This document shows, one piece after another, positions 8,338 to 59,978 of a stretch of DNA of 64,000 nt (positions are counted from its first letter, which is position 1; every line of letters begins with the position of its first letter). Source of the stretch: an uncultured Eubacteriales bacterium (lineage in GTDB: Bacteria > Bacillota > Clostridia > Christensenellales > Aristaeellaceae); contig CADAPM010000004.1 of the NCBI GenBank assembly GCA_902789795.1, forward strand, positions 1-64,000, given 5' to 3'. A program made the translations under genes and the position numbers. The notes below the pieces were generated by a model that searched no databases, was not told the origin of the DNA, and was given only the letters and a program-made list of their open reading frames with translations.

Positions 8338-8470
8338 AGTGTGAAGAGTGGAGAGTGAAGAGTGGAGTTATATGGTTCTGAATCAGTTTAACCGGTCAGA
8401 TCTGAGAAATTCCGAGCTATGCGAGGAATTTCATCCATCACTTCACTCTCCACACTTCACTCTTCACACT
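8338..8470. repeat. Heptad-repeat palindrome A (dnaK-dnaJ gap)
   Basis: The left arm at 8341-8368 is four tandem heptamers of the form GTG(A/G)AG(A/T). The right arm at 8440-8467 is four heptamers whose reverse complement has the same form. The arms can pair over about 30 bp, enclosing about 70 nt with an inner GAAATTCC/GGAATTTC hairpin. The same architecture recurs at 20553, 21634, 33956 and 59151 with other heptamers. Confidence 0.75.
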
Positions 8471-8507
8471 TGTCTGTTATCGTTATGAAATGTGAATACC
8501 CTTTTGA

Positions 8508-18807: not shown

Positions 18808-20174
18808 ATGCTGCATCAGTACCGGCTGAACGGCCGGAATATCGTGCTGGACGCCTGCTCCGGGGCCGTCCATGTGGTCGATGACCTGGCCTATGACGTC
18901 ATCGGCCTGTTTGAGAACCACACTGCGGAGCAGATCGTTGAAGCGCTCAAAGGCCGCTATCCGGAAAATGAGATCCGGGAGTGCGCGGAGGAGGTCGGAC
19001 AGCTGAAGGCTGCCGGCCGGCTTTTTGCGCCGGACACCTTTGCCCCCATCGCGGGCGAGCTGAAGTCGCGCACGGCGGGCGTCGTGAAGGCGCTTTGCCT
19101 GCACGTGGCCCATACCTGCAACCTGAACTGCAGCTATTGCTTCGCCAGCCAGGGCCGCTACCATGGCGAGCGCGCGCTCATGTCCTTTGAGACAGGCAAG
19201 AAGGCGCTGGACTTCCTGGTGGCCCACTCCGGCACCCGCAGGCACCTGGAGGTGGACTTCTTCGGCGGTGAGCCGCTGATGAACTTTGACGTGGTCAAGC
19301 AGCTGGTGGCTTACGCCCGGAGCATCGAGAAGGAAGCGGGCAAGCAGTTCCGCTTCACCCTGACCACCAACGGCATGAACATCGACGACGACGTGATCGA
19401 CTTCTGCAACCGAGAGTGCCACAACGTGGTGCTGAGCCTGGACGGGCGCAAGGAGATCCACGATTTCGCGCGCGTGGACTATCAGGGCCGCGGCAGCTTT
19501 GACCGCGTGGTGCCCAAGTTCCAGCGCCTGGTGGAAAAGCGCGGCGGGAAGAACTACTATATGCGCGGCACCTTCACCCACCGGAACCCGGACTTTTTGA
19601 AGGATATCATGACCATGCTGGACCTGGGCTTCACCGAGCTTTCCATGGAGCCGGTGGTCTGCGCGCCGGATGATCCGGCGGCCCTGACTGCGGAAGACCT
19701 TGAGATCGTCAAGCAGCAGTACGAGGAGCTGGCCGTGCTCATGGACGAGCGCCGGAAAGAGGGCCGACCCTTCACCTTCTACCACTATATGATCGACCTG
19801 ACCGGCGGTCCGTGCATCTACAAGCGCGTGTCCGGCTGCGGCTCGGGCACCGAATACCTGGCGGTCACACCTACGGGCGAGCTGTACCCCTGCCACCAGT
19901 TTGTGGGCGAGGAGCGCTTCCGCCTGGGCAGCCTGGACGAGGGCATCACGAAGCCGGACACCCAGACCGAATTTGCCAATACCAACGTCTATACCCGCGA
20001 GGAGTGCCGGGACTGCTGGGCGCGCCTGTGGTGCGCAGGCGGCTGCGCGGCCAACGCCTGGCATGCCACCGGCAGCATCAACGGCGTGTACAAGGCCGGG
20101 TGCGAGCTCTTCCGCAAGCGCATGGAGTGCGCCATCTGGCTGGAGGCCGTGCGCCTCTCGGACGGGCAGGAAGC

Positions 20175-20178
<4 letters not shown>
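18808..20178 (+). CDS. scfB: SCIFF radical SAM maturase (thioether-forming)
   Basis: A 456-residue radical SAM/SPASM enzyme. Residues about 1-90 are the peptide-recognition (RRE-like) domain. The SAM [4Fe-4S] motif is CNLNCSYC, Cys104/108/111, followed by FFGGEPLMN and TTNGMNI. The C-terminal SPASM region holds many Cys (GCGSGTEYLAVTPTGELYPCHQF and CRDCWARLWCAGGC), matching the auxiliary-cluster sites of CteB-type enzymes. It cross-links Cys residues of the SCIFF peptide. ATG 18808 has CAGGAG upstream; an in-frame ATG at 18772 lies inside the attenuator hairpin and is rejected. It overlaps the decarboxylase start by 4 nt. Confidence 0.95.
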
Positions 20179-21602
<1,424 letters not shown>

Positions 21603-21633
21603 TAGCGGGCAGGACGCTGTGCCACCCGCAAGA

Positions 21634-21753
21634 GTGAAGTGTGAAGAGTGGAGAGTGGAGTGAATACTCCTGCTCATGGCGTCTGATGTAATAAAAGAAA
21701 CAGCGCTTGCGCTGTTTCCACCTGAACTTCACACTTCACTCTCCACTCTCCAC
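21634..21753. repeat. Heptad-repeat palindrome B
   Basis: Left arm 21634-21661: GTGAAGT, GTGAAGA, GTGGAGA, GTGGAGT. Right arm 21726-21753: four complementary heptamers. The loop holds CTGCTCATGGCGT, shared with element C, and a GAAACAGCG-CTTG-CGCTGTTTC hairpin. It fills the gap between the decarboxylase and pepT genes and may act as a terminator through the inner hairpin. Confidence 0.8.
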
Positions 21754-25783: not shown

Positions 25784-26274
25784 GCATGGACGCGATGGAA
25801 GCCCTGCTGACCGCCCGGCGGCTCACGGAGGGCGTGACCCCGCTGAAGACGGACTGCGGCCGCGCCTGCGCTCACGCCTGCTGCCAGCCCGACGAGACGG
25901 GCCGGGGCGGCATGCTGCTGTTCCCGGGGGAGGAGCAATTGTACCGCGGGCTTGCCGGATACCGGATCACCCCGTATACGGCGCTGGAGATCCCGGCTCT
26001 GCTCCTGACCTGCGAGGGCCAATGCGTCCGGACGGAGCGGCCGCTGAGCTGCCGCATCTTCCCGCTGCTGCCCAAGTATAAGGACGGGAGCGTGCGCGTG
26101 GTCCGCGACCGCCGGGGGTTTGAGGTGTGTCCGCTGCTGCCCAGCGGGCTCGGCGCTTTCCGGCCCGAGTTCGTGGAGGCGGTCCGCTCTGCCGGAGAGG
26201 TATTGTATCAGTCGGAGGCGCACCGGAACTTTCTGGATCAGCTGCATAAGCTGATCGCGGGATTTGTGCTTTAA
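25780..26274 (+). CDS. YkgJ-like cysteine-cluster protein
   Basis: A 164-residue protein whose cysteines (CGRACAHACC near 27-36, then CEGQCVRTERPLSCRIFPLLPKY near 81-103, and CPLL at about 115) match the CxxxxxxCC...C...RPxxCRxFP pattern of YkgJ/FliB-type clusters, probably metal-binding. Role unknown. ATG 25780 overlaps the dnaX stop (ATGA), so the two are co-translated. Its TAA stop is shared with the start of the second 161-bp-type element. Confidence 0.7.
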   Translation: MSMDAMEALLTARRLTEGVTPLKTDCGRACAHACCQPDETGRGGMLLFPGEEQLYRGLAGYRITPYTALEIPALLLTCEGQCVRTERPLSCRIFPLLPKYKDGSVRVVRDRRGFEVCPLLPSGLGAFRPEFVEAVRSAGEVLYQSEAHRNFLDQLHKLIAGFVL

Positions 26275-26436
26275 TACTTATTTGCATCTAACTCATGCAC
26301 ATCTGCCGGCGACTTTTGCACCGGCTCATCGTCAGCCGCTCTCACCGTACCACAGCGGGTACGCTTTCGAGCGTCTTCCTTGATCCGGCACAAAATTCAT
26401 CCGGCATATGTACATTCATTAGACGCAAATCAGTAT
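26274..26436 (+). repeat. 161-bp-type palindromic element, copy 2
   Basis: A 163-bp sequence from ATACTTATTTGCATCTA to TAGACGCAAATCAGTAT, homologous to the minus strand of 7030-7190 along its length. The central GTACC-ACAGC-GGGTAC hairpin and GTCTTCCTTGAT box are conserved. The arms differ from copy 1 but still pair (for example CACCGG opposite CCGGCAC). It begins on the last base of the TAA stop of the Cys-cluster gene and ends next to the ribosome binding site of the methyltransferase gene. Confidence 0.8.
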
Positions 26437-26449
26437 AACAGGAGGGACT

Positions 26450-33950: not shown

Positions 33951-33955
33951 ACAAA

Positions 33956-34075
33956 TTAGAAAGTAGGGATTAGGAAGTAGAAAGTAGGAAGTAAATAATG
34001 TTCTGCTCATGGCGTTACTGACGCCACTGCATAAGTATAATTACCTCCTACCTCCTACTTCCTACCTTCTCACTT
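33956..34075. repeat. Heptad-repeat palindrome C
   Basis: Left arm 33956-33990: five heptamers of the form (G/T)TAG(A/G)(A/G)A. Right arm about 34039-34075: complementary heptamers (reverse complement GTAGGA(A/G)). The loop contains CTGCTCATGGCGT, identical to element B, followed by a GGCGT-TACTG-ACGCC hairpin. It lies between the GH43 and GH3 genes. Confidence 0.75.
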
Positions 34076-59128: not shown

Positions 59129-59150
59129 GGATAATACCTCCCTTTGGTAG

Positions 59151-59265
59151 GTTGAAGGTTGAAGGGAGAAGGTTGAAGGTTTGATCAGTTCTGCCTGACA
59201 GTATATGCCCGGCAGGGCGCATCCTGAACAAACTGACCTTCAACCTTAAACCTTCACCCTTCAAC
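59151..59265. repeat. Heptad-repeat palindrome D
   Basis: Left arm 59151-59178: GTTGAAG, GTTGAAG, GGAGAAG, GTTGAAG. Right arm 59238-59265: complements of GTTGAAG, GTTTAAG, GGTGAAG, GTTGAAG. The loop contains TTCTGC as in element C and a TGCCC-GGCA-GGGCGCA hairpin. It lies between the HMA gene and the ATPase gene of one operon. Confidence 0.8.
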
Positions 59266-59300
59266 CTTAATACTTCACTTTATTTGTGTTTTGCAGGCTA

Positions 59301-59638: not shown

Positions 59639-59658
59639 TTTGCTACAACTGAACAGCA

Positions 59659-59877
59659 GACACAGATGCGCGGCAACGCGCGGCGGCCGGGGGACAACCG
59701 GCCCGTCATGGGAAGCGGATGTGAGGTCCGCACTGTCCCAGCAACCGTGAAGCAGACGAAGCGGCACGAGCACGGATTATTCCGTGCCCAGCCACTGTGC
59801 GCAGCCGGGTGAGCGGCATAGGACGCATGGGAAGGCGCTGCGGAGGATGAAGCCAAGTCGGGAGACCTGTCTGTGTC
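59659..59877 (+). promoter_or_regulatory. Cobalamin riboswitch
   Basis: The P1 stem is GACACAG (59659-59665) with CTGTGTC (59871-59877). Core sequences in order: GGGAA...GATGTGAGGTCC...CTGTCCCAGCAACCGTGA, an AGCCACTG segment and the 3' AAGCCAAGTCGGGAGACCTGTC, which correspond to the B12-box GCCACTG and the CC-GGAAGACCTGC side of the consensus. It lies between a strong promoter and an ABC transporter of the BtuFCD type. Binding of cobalamin should reduce transporter expression. Confidence 0.9.
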
Positions 59878-59926
59878 CAGGATGGATGCGGATCCCTGGG
59901 GATGGAAACGCGGCATATGATGTCAT

Positions 59927-59978
59927 TCCCTCCGCTGTTCTCTTGCAATGACGCCGCTGACGCGGCGAATTGGAGGGA
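59927..59978 (+). promoter_or_regulatory. Expression platform: ribosome-site sequestering helix
   Basis: TCCCTCC (59927-59933) is exactly complementary to GGAGGGA (59972-59978), the ribosome binding site of the first gene. A GCCGC-TGAC-GCGGC hairpin lies between. Pairing would hide the site, so control looks translational; no terminator is seen in the leader. Confidence 0.7.

Follow-up and report, generated by a model that had tools for sequence, protein, structure and literature searches.

The locus at 21634 consists of two facing arms of tandem heptamers, complementary to each other across a loop, and raises the question of how such arms come to match and whether they are kept matched. It lies in a window of 64,000 nucleotides (the whole stretch of DNA analysed), in which a sequence-only reading had listed five loci of one design, each with its own heptamer, and had proposed that the two arms of a locus evolve together. 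All five are present where they had been placed, each loop being flanked by arms of some 4-4.5 heptamers:

8341..8367, + strand: locus 1, purine arm of GTGRAGW heptamers, in the dnaK-dnaJ gap
8439..8471, + strand: locus 1, pyrimidine arm; an orthologous palindrome with the same loop is found in congener G007
20553..20583, + strand: locus 2, left arm of four AATGCGG units, inside a decarboxylase-like ORF; six congeners lack it
20607..20639, + strand: locus 2, right arm, with the AATTCGG theme on the opposite strand
21630..21660, + strand: locus 3 (the locus under study), purine arm of GTGRAGW heptamers
21661..21725, + strand: locus 3, loop; by eye, its start resembles the family A core (CTGCTCATGGCGT) and its end a family B hairpin (AAACAGCGC..GCGCTGTTTCCACCTGA)
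21726..21753, + strand: locus 3, pyrimidine arm
33955..33993, + strand: locus 4, purine arm of GTAGGAA heptamers, between GH43 and GH3 genes
33994..34041, + strand: locus 4, loop, family A core of 48 nt
34042..34065, + strand: locus 4, pyrimidine arm
59149..59181, + strand: locus 5, purine arm of GTTGAAG heptamers
59236..59268, + strand: locus 5, pyrimidine arm

The idea of one design carried by many heptamers with complementary arms is borne out across these loci and across the genome. The heptamer does differ among the loci, but it marks dispersed families rather than single loci. Similarly, the arms of a locus are complementary, as had been noticed, but an exact match is not needed, since the arms at 20553 differ by one constant base in every unit (AATGCGG on the left, AATTCGG on the right). 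When folded as single-stranded DNA, each of the five loci is more stable than expected (z = -4.6 to -8.2), with none of 200 shuffles as good. Judged by eye, the loop of the locus at 21634 looks like a hybrid of families A and B. No Rfam match at the gathering score was obtained for the window elements or for six further loci. Two known RNAs lie elsewhere: a cobalamin riboswitch (RF00174, 55.5 bits) at window positions 59648-59888, upstream of a periplasmic-binding-protein gene at 59948, and a Gut-1 RNA (RF01706, 58.2 bits) among palindromes of the same genome (L112:8765-8839, - strand). In addition, the intergenic gap at window positions 26274-26449 is occupied by a long inverted repeat of non-heptameric make-up (arms of 36 nt, score 20.6); in G007 this gap measures just 15 nt, and in G002 23 nt.

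Within the window, a scan of lags 4-15 returned seven arrays at lag 7, seven at lag 14, one at lag 15 and none elsewhere, while 20 dinucleotide shuffles gave a mean of zero at lags 7 and 14. The excess is also clear in the genome of origin (G000, 2.59 Mb), of which 1.26 Mb, about half, was analysed: this sample, part of which was picked around known hits, contains 128 lag-7 arrays, as against 0-3 at lags 3, 4, 5, 8, 10, 11, 13, 16, 17, 19 and 20. Lags 6, 9, 12, 15 and 18 gave 6-13 arrays, reflecting codon effects, and lags 14 and 21 gave 78 and 42. A 0.79-Mb subset made up mostly of consecutive runs still holds 65 lag-7 arrays, with 0-2 at the same eleven background lags. Three successive GTGRAGW units are matched 65 times in the 2.59-Mb genome and the reversed pattern twice.

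The arrays are head-to-tail 7-nt units, dispersed, mainly intergenic and of about four units each, which places them among heptameric tandem repeats of the STRR-like SSR kind. The four tracts of at least three G that define a G-quadruplex are not found, the main heptamers lacking GGG on reading. Across the 1.26 Mb we count 54 paired elements (hairpins) and 37 unpaired arrays, the former without the window locus 20553, whose right arm is too pyrimidine-poor for the pairing rule. The most frequent arm lengths are 31 and 33 nt (median 32, about 4.5 units), and loop lengths cluster at 48-52 nt and 95-113 nt. Array neighbours within 300 bp are ordered purine-then-pyrimidine in 47 cases, the reverse in one, like-with-like in five and mixed in three; of 48 opposed pairs, 47 thus start with the purine arm. 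Other genomes (G001, G004, G168, G283, the f23 group and G076) yield 16 purine-then-pyrimidine pairs and no reverse one, although in some of the 16 the heptamers of the two arms do not match. Within the genome of origin, every one of the 47 pairs has a 7-mer of the left arm in common with the reversed right arm, whereas random re-pairing gives a mean of 15 and a maximum of 25.

These figures bear on the simplest account, in which heptamers expand locally through polymerase slippage and the pairs are incidental. Heptamer repeats are over-represented in many bacteria for no agreed reason, and the general excess has been ascribed to polymerase contacts, as discussed in passages of Rehm et al. (2015, PMC4692102), which speaks for slippage. 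The matched heptamers on both arms, the fixed purine-first order and, above all, the recurrence of the same loops (described next) contradict it, and we regard plain slippage as very improbable.

Seven heptamer classes were defined by hand, and under this definition both arms fall in the same class in 47 of the 54 paired elements, four of the other seven looking compound. The dispersed families comprise GTAGGAA, GTGRAGW, GTGATAA, GTGAGGA, AATKCGG and GTTGAAG. Family A is represented by 16 copies with clear boundaries, a loop of 48-50 nt, and loop and arms in common. Its two arms can be told apart, GGAGTTAGG occurring in 9 of 16 3' arms and 1 of 16 5' arms; this distinction tracks the orientation of the loop and is reached in 15 of 1000 random flips. 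In family B, the loop is about 100 nt long and built of hairpin modules delimited by TTCAGG, TTGCGG or TTGTGG and their complements, and these modules are common to GTGAAGA, GTGATAA and GTGAGGA elements. Accordingly, 49 of 57 loop matches between different classes fall among these three heptamers, and the remaining eight involve GTAGGAA. With terminal inverted repeats, no coding capacity and multiple copies, the elements have the make-up of MITEs.

The sharing of loops by different heptamers is where copying of one arm from the other has to be weighed. If copying is templated by the hairpin, snap-back synthesis or conversion of one arm by the other would keep the arms matched and rewrite the heptamer in place. 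Such a process would fit B loops that are 82-94% identical over 63-99 nt and yet bear GTGAAGA, GTGATAA or GTGAGGA on both arms, as well as the dnaJ-dnaK site, where the heptamer differs on both arms among congeners. Against it, arms are no more alike within an element than across elements. In four classes, the similarity of an arm to its own partner against that to arms of other elements was 0.859 vs 0.873 (n = 11), 0.865 vs 0.899 (n = 17), 0.831 vs 0.864 (n = 7) and 0.889 vs 0.904 (n = 8), and own-partner similarity was reached in 1779, 2000, 1864 and 1951 of 2000 shuffles, respectively. The heptamer is therefore a trait of the family.

Orthologous loci point the same way. Independent drift of the arms, the outcome that the sequence-only reading itself had named as counting against it, appears in two of three comparisons with the same heptamer: at L050:4754 against G004, and at dnaJ-dnaK against G005, the left arm is identical while the right arm and the loop have changed. 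In the third, dnaJ-dnaK against G007, both arms are nearly unchanged. Taken with the within-element similarities, and with the constant base difference at 20553, these comparisons leave continuing arm-to-arm copying unsupported. Nonetheless, founder elements with newly matching arms must originate in some way, since sister species carry another heptamer on both arms at a shared site and one loop family bears at least three heptamers. Templated copying, disfavoured as a continuing process and still considered as a rare founder event, is to our judgement quite unlikely.

A different light is shed by sites shared with congeners. The dnaK-dnaJ gap holds a heptamer palindrome in G000, G007 (heptamer and loop as in G000), G005, G004 (GTGAGGA, which departs from GTGAAGA by one base in each unit) and G002 (AATKCGG), and by eye other inverted repeats in G003 and G001; G006 gave no match. 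At the 21634 site, G002 carries an AATTCGG palindrome, and no palindrome is found in the gap of G007, G001, G005 or G003. The 33956 site is occupied in G002 by a GTGAGGA palindrome with a loop that is B-like by eye, and the 59151 site by what appears by eye to be a decayed GTAGGAA-type palindrome, the latter site having none in G004, G007 and G001. Elsewhere, C7:50179 bears GTAGGAA in the genome of origin and GTGAGGA in G004, and C3:63734 bears GTAGGAA, G004 having GTGAGGA inside a common outer arm. Three other sites have no called array in G004, although one of them, C1:148878, keeps two leftover heptamers there. No palindrome was found in G002 at C3:63734, L046:4833 or L122:15603, which have one shared flank or an unpaired array.

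Where both flanks are shared, G002 has a palindrome at four of five sites occupied in the genome of origin and at none of 19 unoccupied gene pairs, and G004 at four of eight and none of 54; the comparison is not even-handed, the occupied sites being recognised partly by eye and the unoccupied ones by threshold alone. The base rates of an inverted-repeat scan are lower bounds, given that at its cut-off of 14 the G002 palindrome of 33956 scores 13 and that of 21634 is missed. Orthologous pairs were defined with a hexamer gene caller, which missed one occupied G004 site (L188, added by eye). With the two called sites, the G004 association has a Fisher P of 0.0085 over all 60 pairs and 0.07 over gaps >60 nt. 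At the shared occupied sites the heptamer differs in four of four cases in G002 and three of four in G004 (7/8 together). Occupied sites thus persist while the heptamer changes, an observation that is new and absent from the literature searched. Against this pattern of exchange and mobility stand L050, a shared site that keeps the same heptamer, and C7:50179, which is empty in G002. Identities at dnaK, dnaJ (G005 apart) and the ATPase give the closeness order G004, G002, G007, and those at pepT, compared without G004, G002 then G007. The dnaK/dnaJ tree is weakly supported (18, 25, 47, 92), with the dnaJ of G005 oddly close to that of G000, and the order of swaps at the dnaK-dnaJ site is not derivable from it.

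Persistence at a site could also reflect selection on RNA: hairpins in operon gaps and at gene ends would act as mRNA stabilisers or attenuators, and any palindrome would suffice at a given site. The occupation of the dnaK-dnaJ gap in G000 and several congeners agrees with this, as do the hairpin modules of B loops, in which pairing is kept while the stem sequences differ (by eye, unscored). So does gene context, the 85 array groups being distributed over 53 tandem and 24 convergent gaps, 4 divergent ones, 2 called inside genes and 2 at edges, compared with 273 tandem, 76 convergent and 88 divergent among all gaps >60 nt. Nevertheless, avoidance of promoters alone accounts for this context, and the 21634 and 59151 sites are without a palindrome in several congeners. 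Covariation is almost nil in the family A loop, where RNAalifold finds two-sided change in 1 of 17 predicted pairs, and we set that loop aside as a covarying RNA.

Further evidence against RNA selection is the copy inside a gene. Of the two cases called inside genes, L122:15603 probably reflects a misplaced start, and 20553 is real. The latter sits in an Orn/Lys/Arg decarboxylase-like ORF (19812-21602) and is absent from six congeners, the spacing of the flanking matches being 81 nt shorter in G001, G003, G005, G006 and G007 and 82 nt shorter in G002; G004 gave no match at this site. The 81 nt amount to 27 codons, and the ORF remains open despite the insert. At the same site G002 reads AATTCGGGAAGCGG, and AATTCGG is present there. 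All considered, selected RNA hairpins appear an unlikely explanation of the palindromes.

We incline to the view that the palindromes form several families of non-autonomous mobile elements, which enter gaps often at resident palindromes and replace these by nesting. An element would measure about 70-250 bp, its purine arm holding 4-5 heptamers and being followed by a loop and then a pyrimidine arm; the loop would be of family A (about 48 nt), of family B (about 100 nt, with modular hairpins) or of another kind. The heptamer would be inherited with the family, and copying of the whole element would yield matched arms, each of which would later drift alone; families and matched arms are both expected because the element is copied whole. 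New copies would be placed in intergenic gaps, chiefly those behind or between genes and seldom those separating divergent genes, with one in-frame copy inside a gene. A newcomer landing inside an older palindrome would leave the old arms outside to decay, so that the site persists and the heptamer changes. Shared sites with different families imply either a preference for landing at resident palindromes or selection that retains a hairpin.

Transposition, rather than local rearrangement, is the likely mode of spread, although 20553 is the only clean case of full and empty loci. Nesting, presumably the usual route of replacement, is favoured by three observations: the new GTGAGGA/B palindrome at G004_C3:81805 still has, outside it, an outer pyrimidine arm with homology to the one at C3:63734; some arrays in the genome of origin combine two heptamer classes; and the purine skew continues 30 nt beyond the arms (0.615 left vs 0.401 right). 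A by-eye impression that the heptamer register is kept through nested arrays was discarded, as a register between different heptamers is undefinable. Against mobility, neither a target-site duplication nor a shared or complementary flank was detected (direct-repeat score 4.62, vs 4.52 shuffled). Most swapped sites hold no remnant of an earlier palindrome, and there independent insertion or local replacement fits equally. In this regard, a possible though doubtful alternative is that hairpin sites are fixed and rewritten as a unit, the palindrome staying through speciation while the heptamer of both arms, and often the loop, is exchanged by nesting or templated resynthesis. If true, such rewriting would renew complementarity without compensatory mutation.

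The kind of element is already known. The sequence-only reading knew of no named counterpart in Clostridia, and our literature searches found none there either, but counterparts exist in bacteria at large; literature on dnaK-dnaJ hairpins, including the passages of PMC4853749 and PMC4990558 consulted, offered nothing of use. Arrays of about four heptamers with convergent pairs are described for Xanthomonas (GGGAATC) and Nostoc (GGGGAYT), in the passages of Rehm et al. (2015, PMC4692102) with a single G-rich type of heptamer in each genome, for which a quadruplex is discussed; the present genome has instead at least six heptamers, most without G-tracts, along with structured loops that recur and shared sites at which heptamers are swapped. 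Geobacter metallireducens comes close, with dispersed elements of four GGGACCG or five MTYCTGA heptamers, hence more than one heptamer per genome, and class 3 sites depicted in a looped layout of two strands (PMC2700814). There the elements are read as regulatory elements or regulator sites, and loop families and comparison of orthologous sites are absent from the passages of that source consulted. The tandem heptamers of Beggiatoaceae (TAACTGA) are likewise dispersed, but in the parts of PMC4679880 seen they are direct repeats of a single heptamer with one indirect case only. REP/REPIN sequences and MITEs are short, palindromic and dispersed, lying 3' of genes and sometimes within them, but their arms are not described as heptameric in the excerpts used (PMC3733652, PMC3116915). 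The present palindromes differ from both in that RAYT (Y1 transposase) does not track them and no target-site duplication is seen.

A further likeness is offered by Nostoc, in which Elhai et al. (2008) reportedly described small repeats, the SDR elements, nested within arrays of tandem heptamers, as well as STRR. The literature searched describes neither a clostridial genome in which several heptamers go with common loops nor an exchange of heptamers at shared sites.

The elements are unevenly spread within the genus. Matches to three successive GTRRRRR units number 69 in G000, 152 in G001 and 58 in G004, against 0-1 in the remaining five congeners; read backwards, the pattern, which purine 7-mer arrays also satisfy, is matched 27, 64 and 41 times in these three and 0-2 times in the others. 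Among 120 family genomes drawn, the B-loop and A-loop DNA queries each matched G000 and G004 alone, G002, G003 and G006 not being among the genomes shown. The loops are not confined to two species, because G002 carries the B-like loop, recognised by eye, at the 33956 site. In the phylum, longer arrays of GTRRRRR occur in 30 of 299 genomes, several of which also give large counts for the reversed pattern, and 20 stretches from 11 of these genomes show purine-pyrimidine pairs in some (G168, G283, G076) and single arrays in others.

No candidate for a mobilising enzyme follows the abundance of the elements. As regards a parental transposon with the same ends, ORFs of the 1.26 Mb analysed reach at most two copies at >60% identity, in a single pair. 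RAYT was rejected as a candidate, since its presence does not follow abundance: one weak hit in G000, presence in G001, and none in the element-rich G004, a genome 91% complete. An origin by reverse transcriptase, with telomerase-like or retron-like template copying, was also rejected, RVT_1 not being found in G000, G001 and G004 (88-91% complete). The hairpin nuclease SbcD has no match above cut-off in G000, G002 and G004 and is present in the other five congeners (genomes 68-92% complete). Its loss was dismissed as a cause, the nuclease being present in the element-rich G001, and G002, without it, being poor in the commonest arrays.

Because the genus includes species both rich and poor in these elements, and because one genome holds several heptamers, with loops and sites in common, the origin of heptamers becomes testable, in a setting that separates slippage, transposition and templated copying. 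For the putative enzyme, comparison of gene content between the rich G000, G001 and G004 and the five congeners poor in the commonest arrays offers itself, and the dnaK-dnaJ site raises the question of whether such hairpins become functional.

Two further observations concern other genomes. Stretches L144, L145 and L147 (G022, G141), from another family of the phylum, carry dispersed single arrays such as AGTGAGGAGTGAGGGGTAAGGGGTGAGGGG, with the recurring flanks TTAGTAAGAAA and TTTAGTTTATTTC. Within the genus, L166 of G001 contains composite repeats at 816-1094 and 2617-2871, in which GTAGGAGG arms surround an AATGCGT array and a GTGAAGA array; the enclosed heptamers are unlike, and the two repeats lie in opposite orientations.
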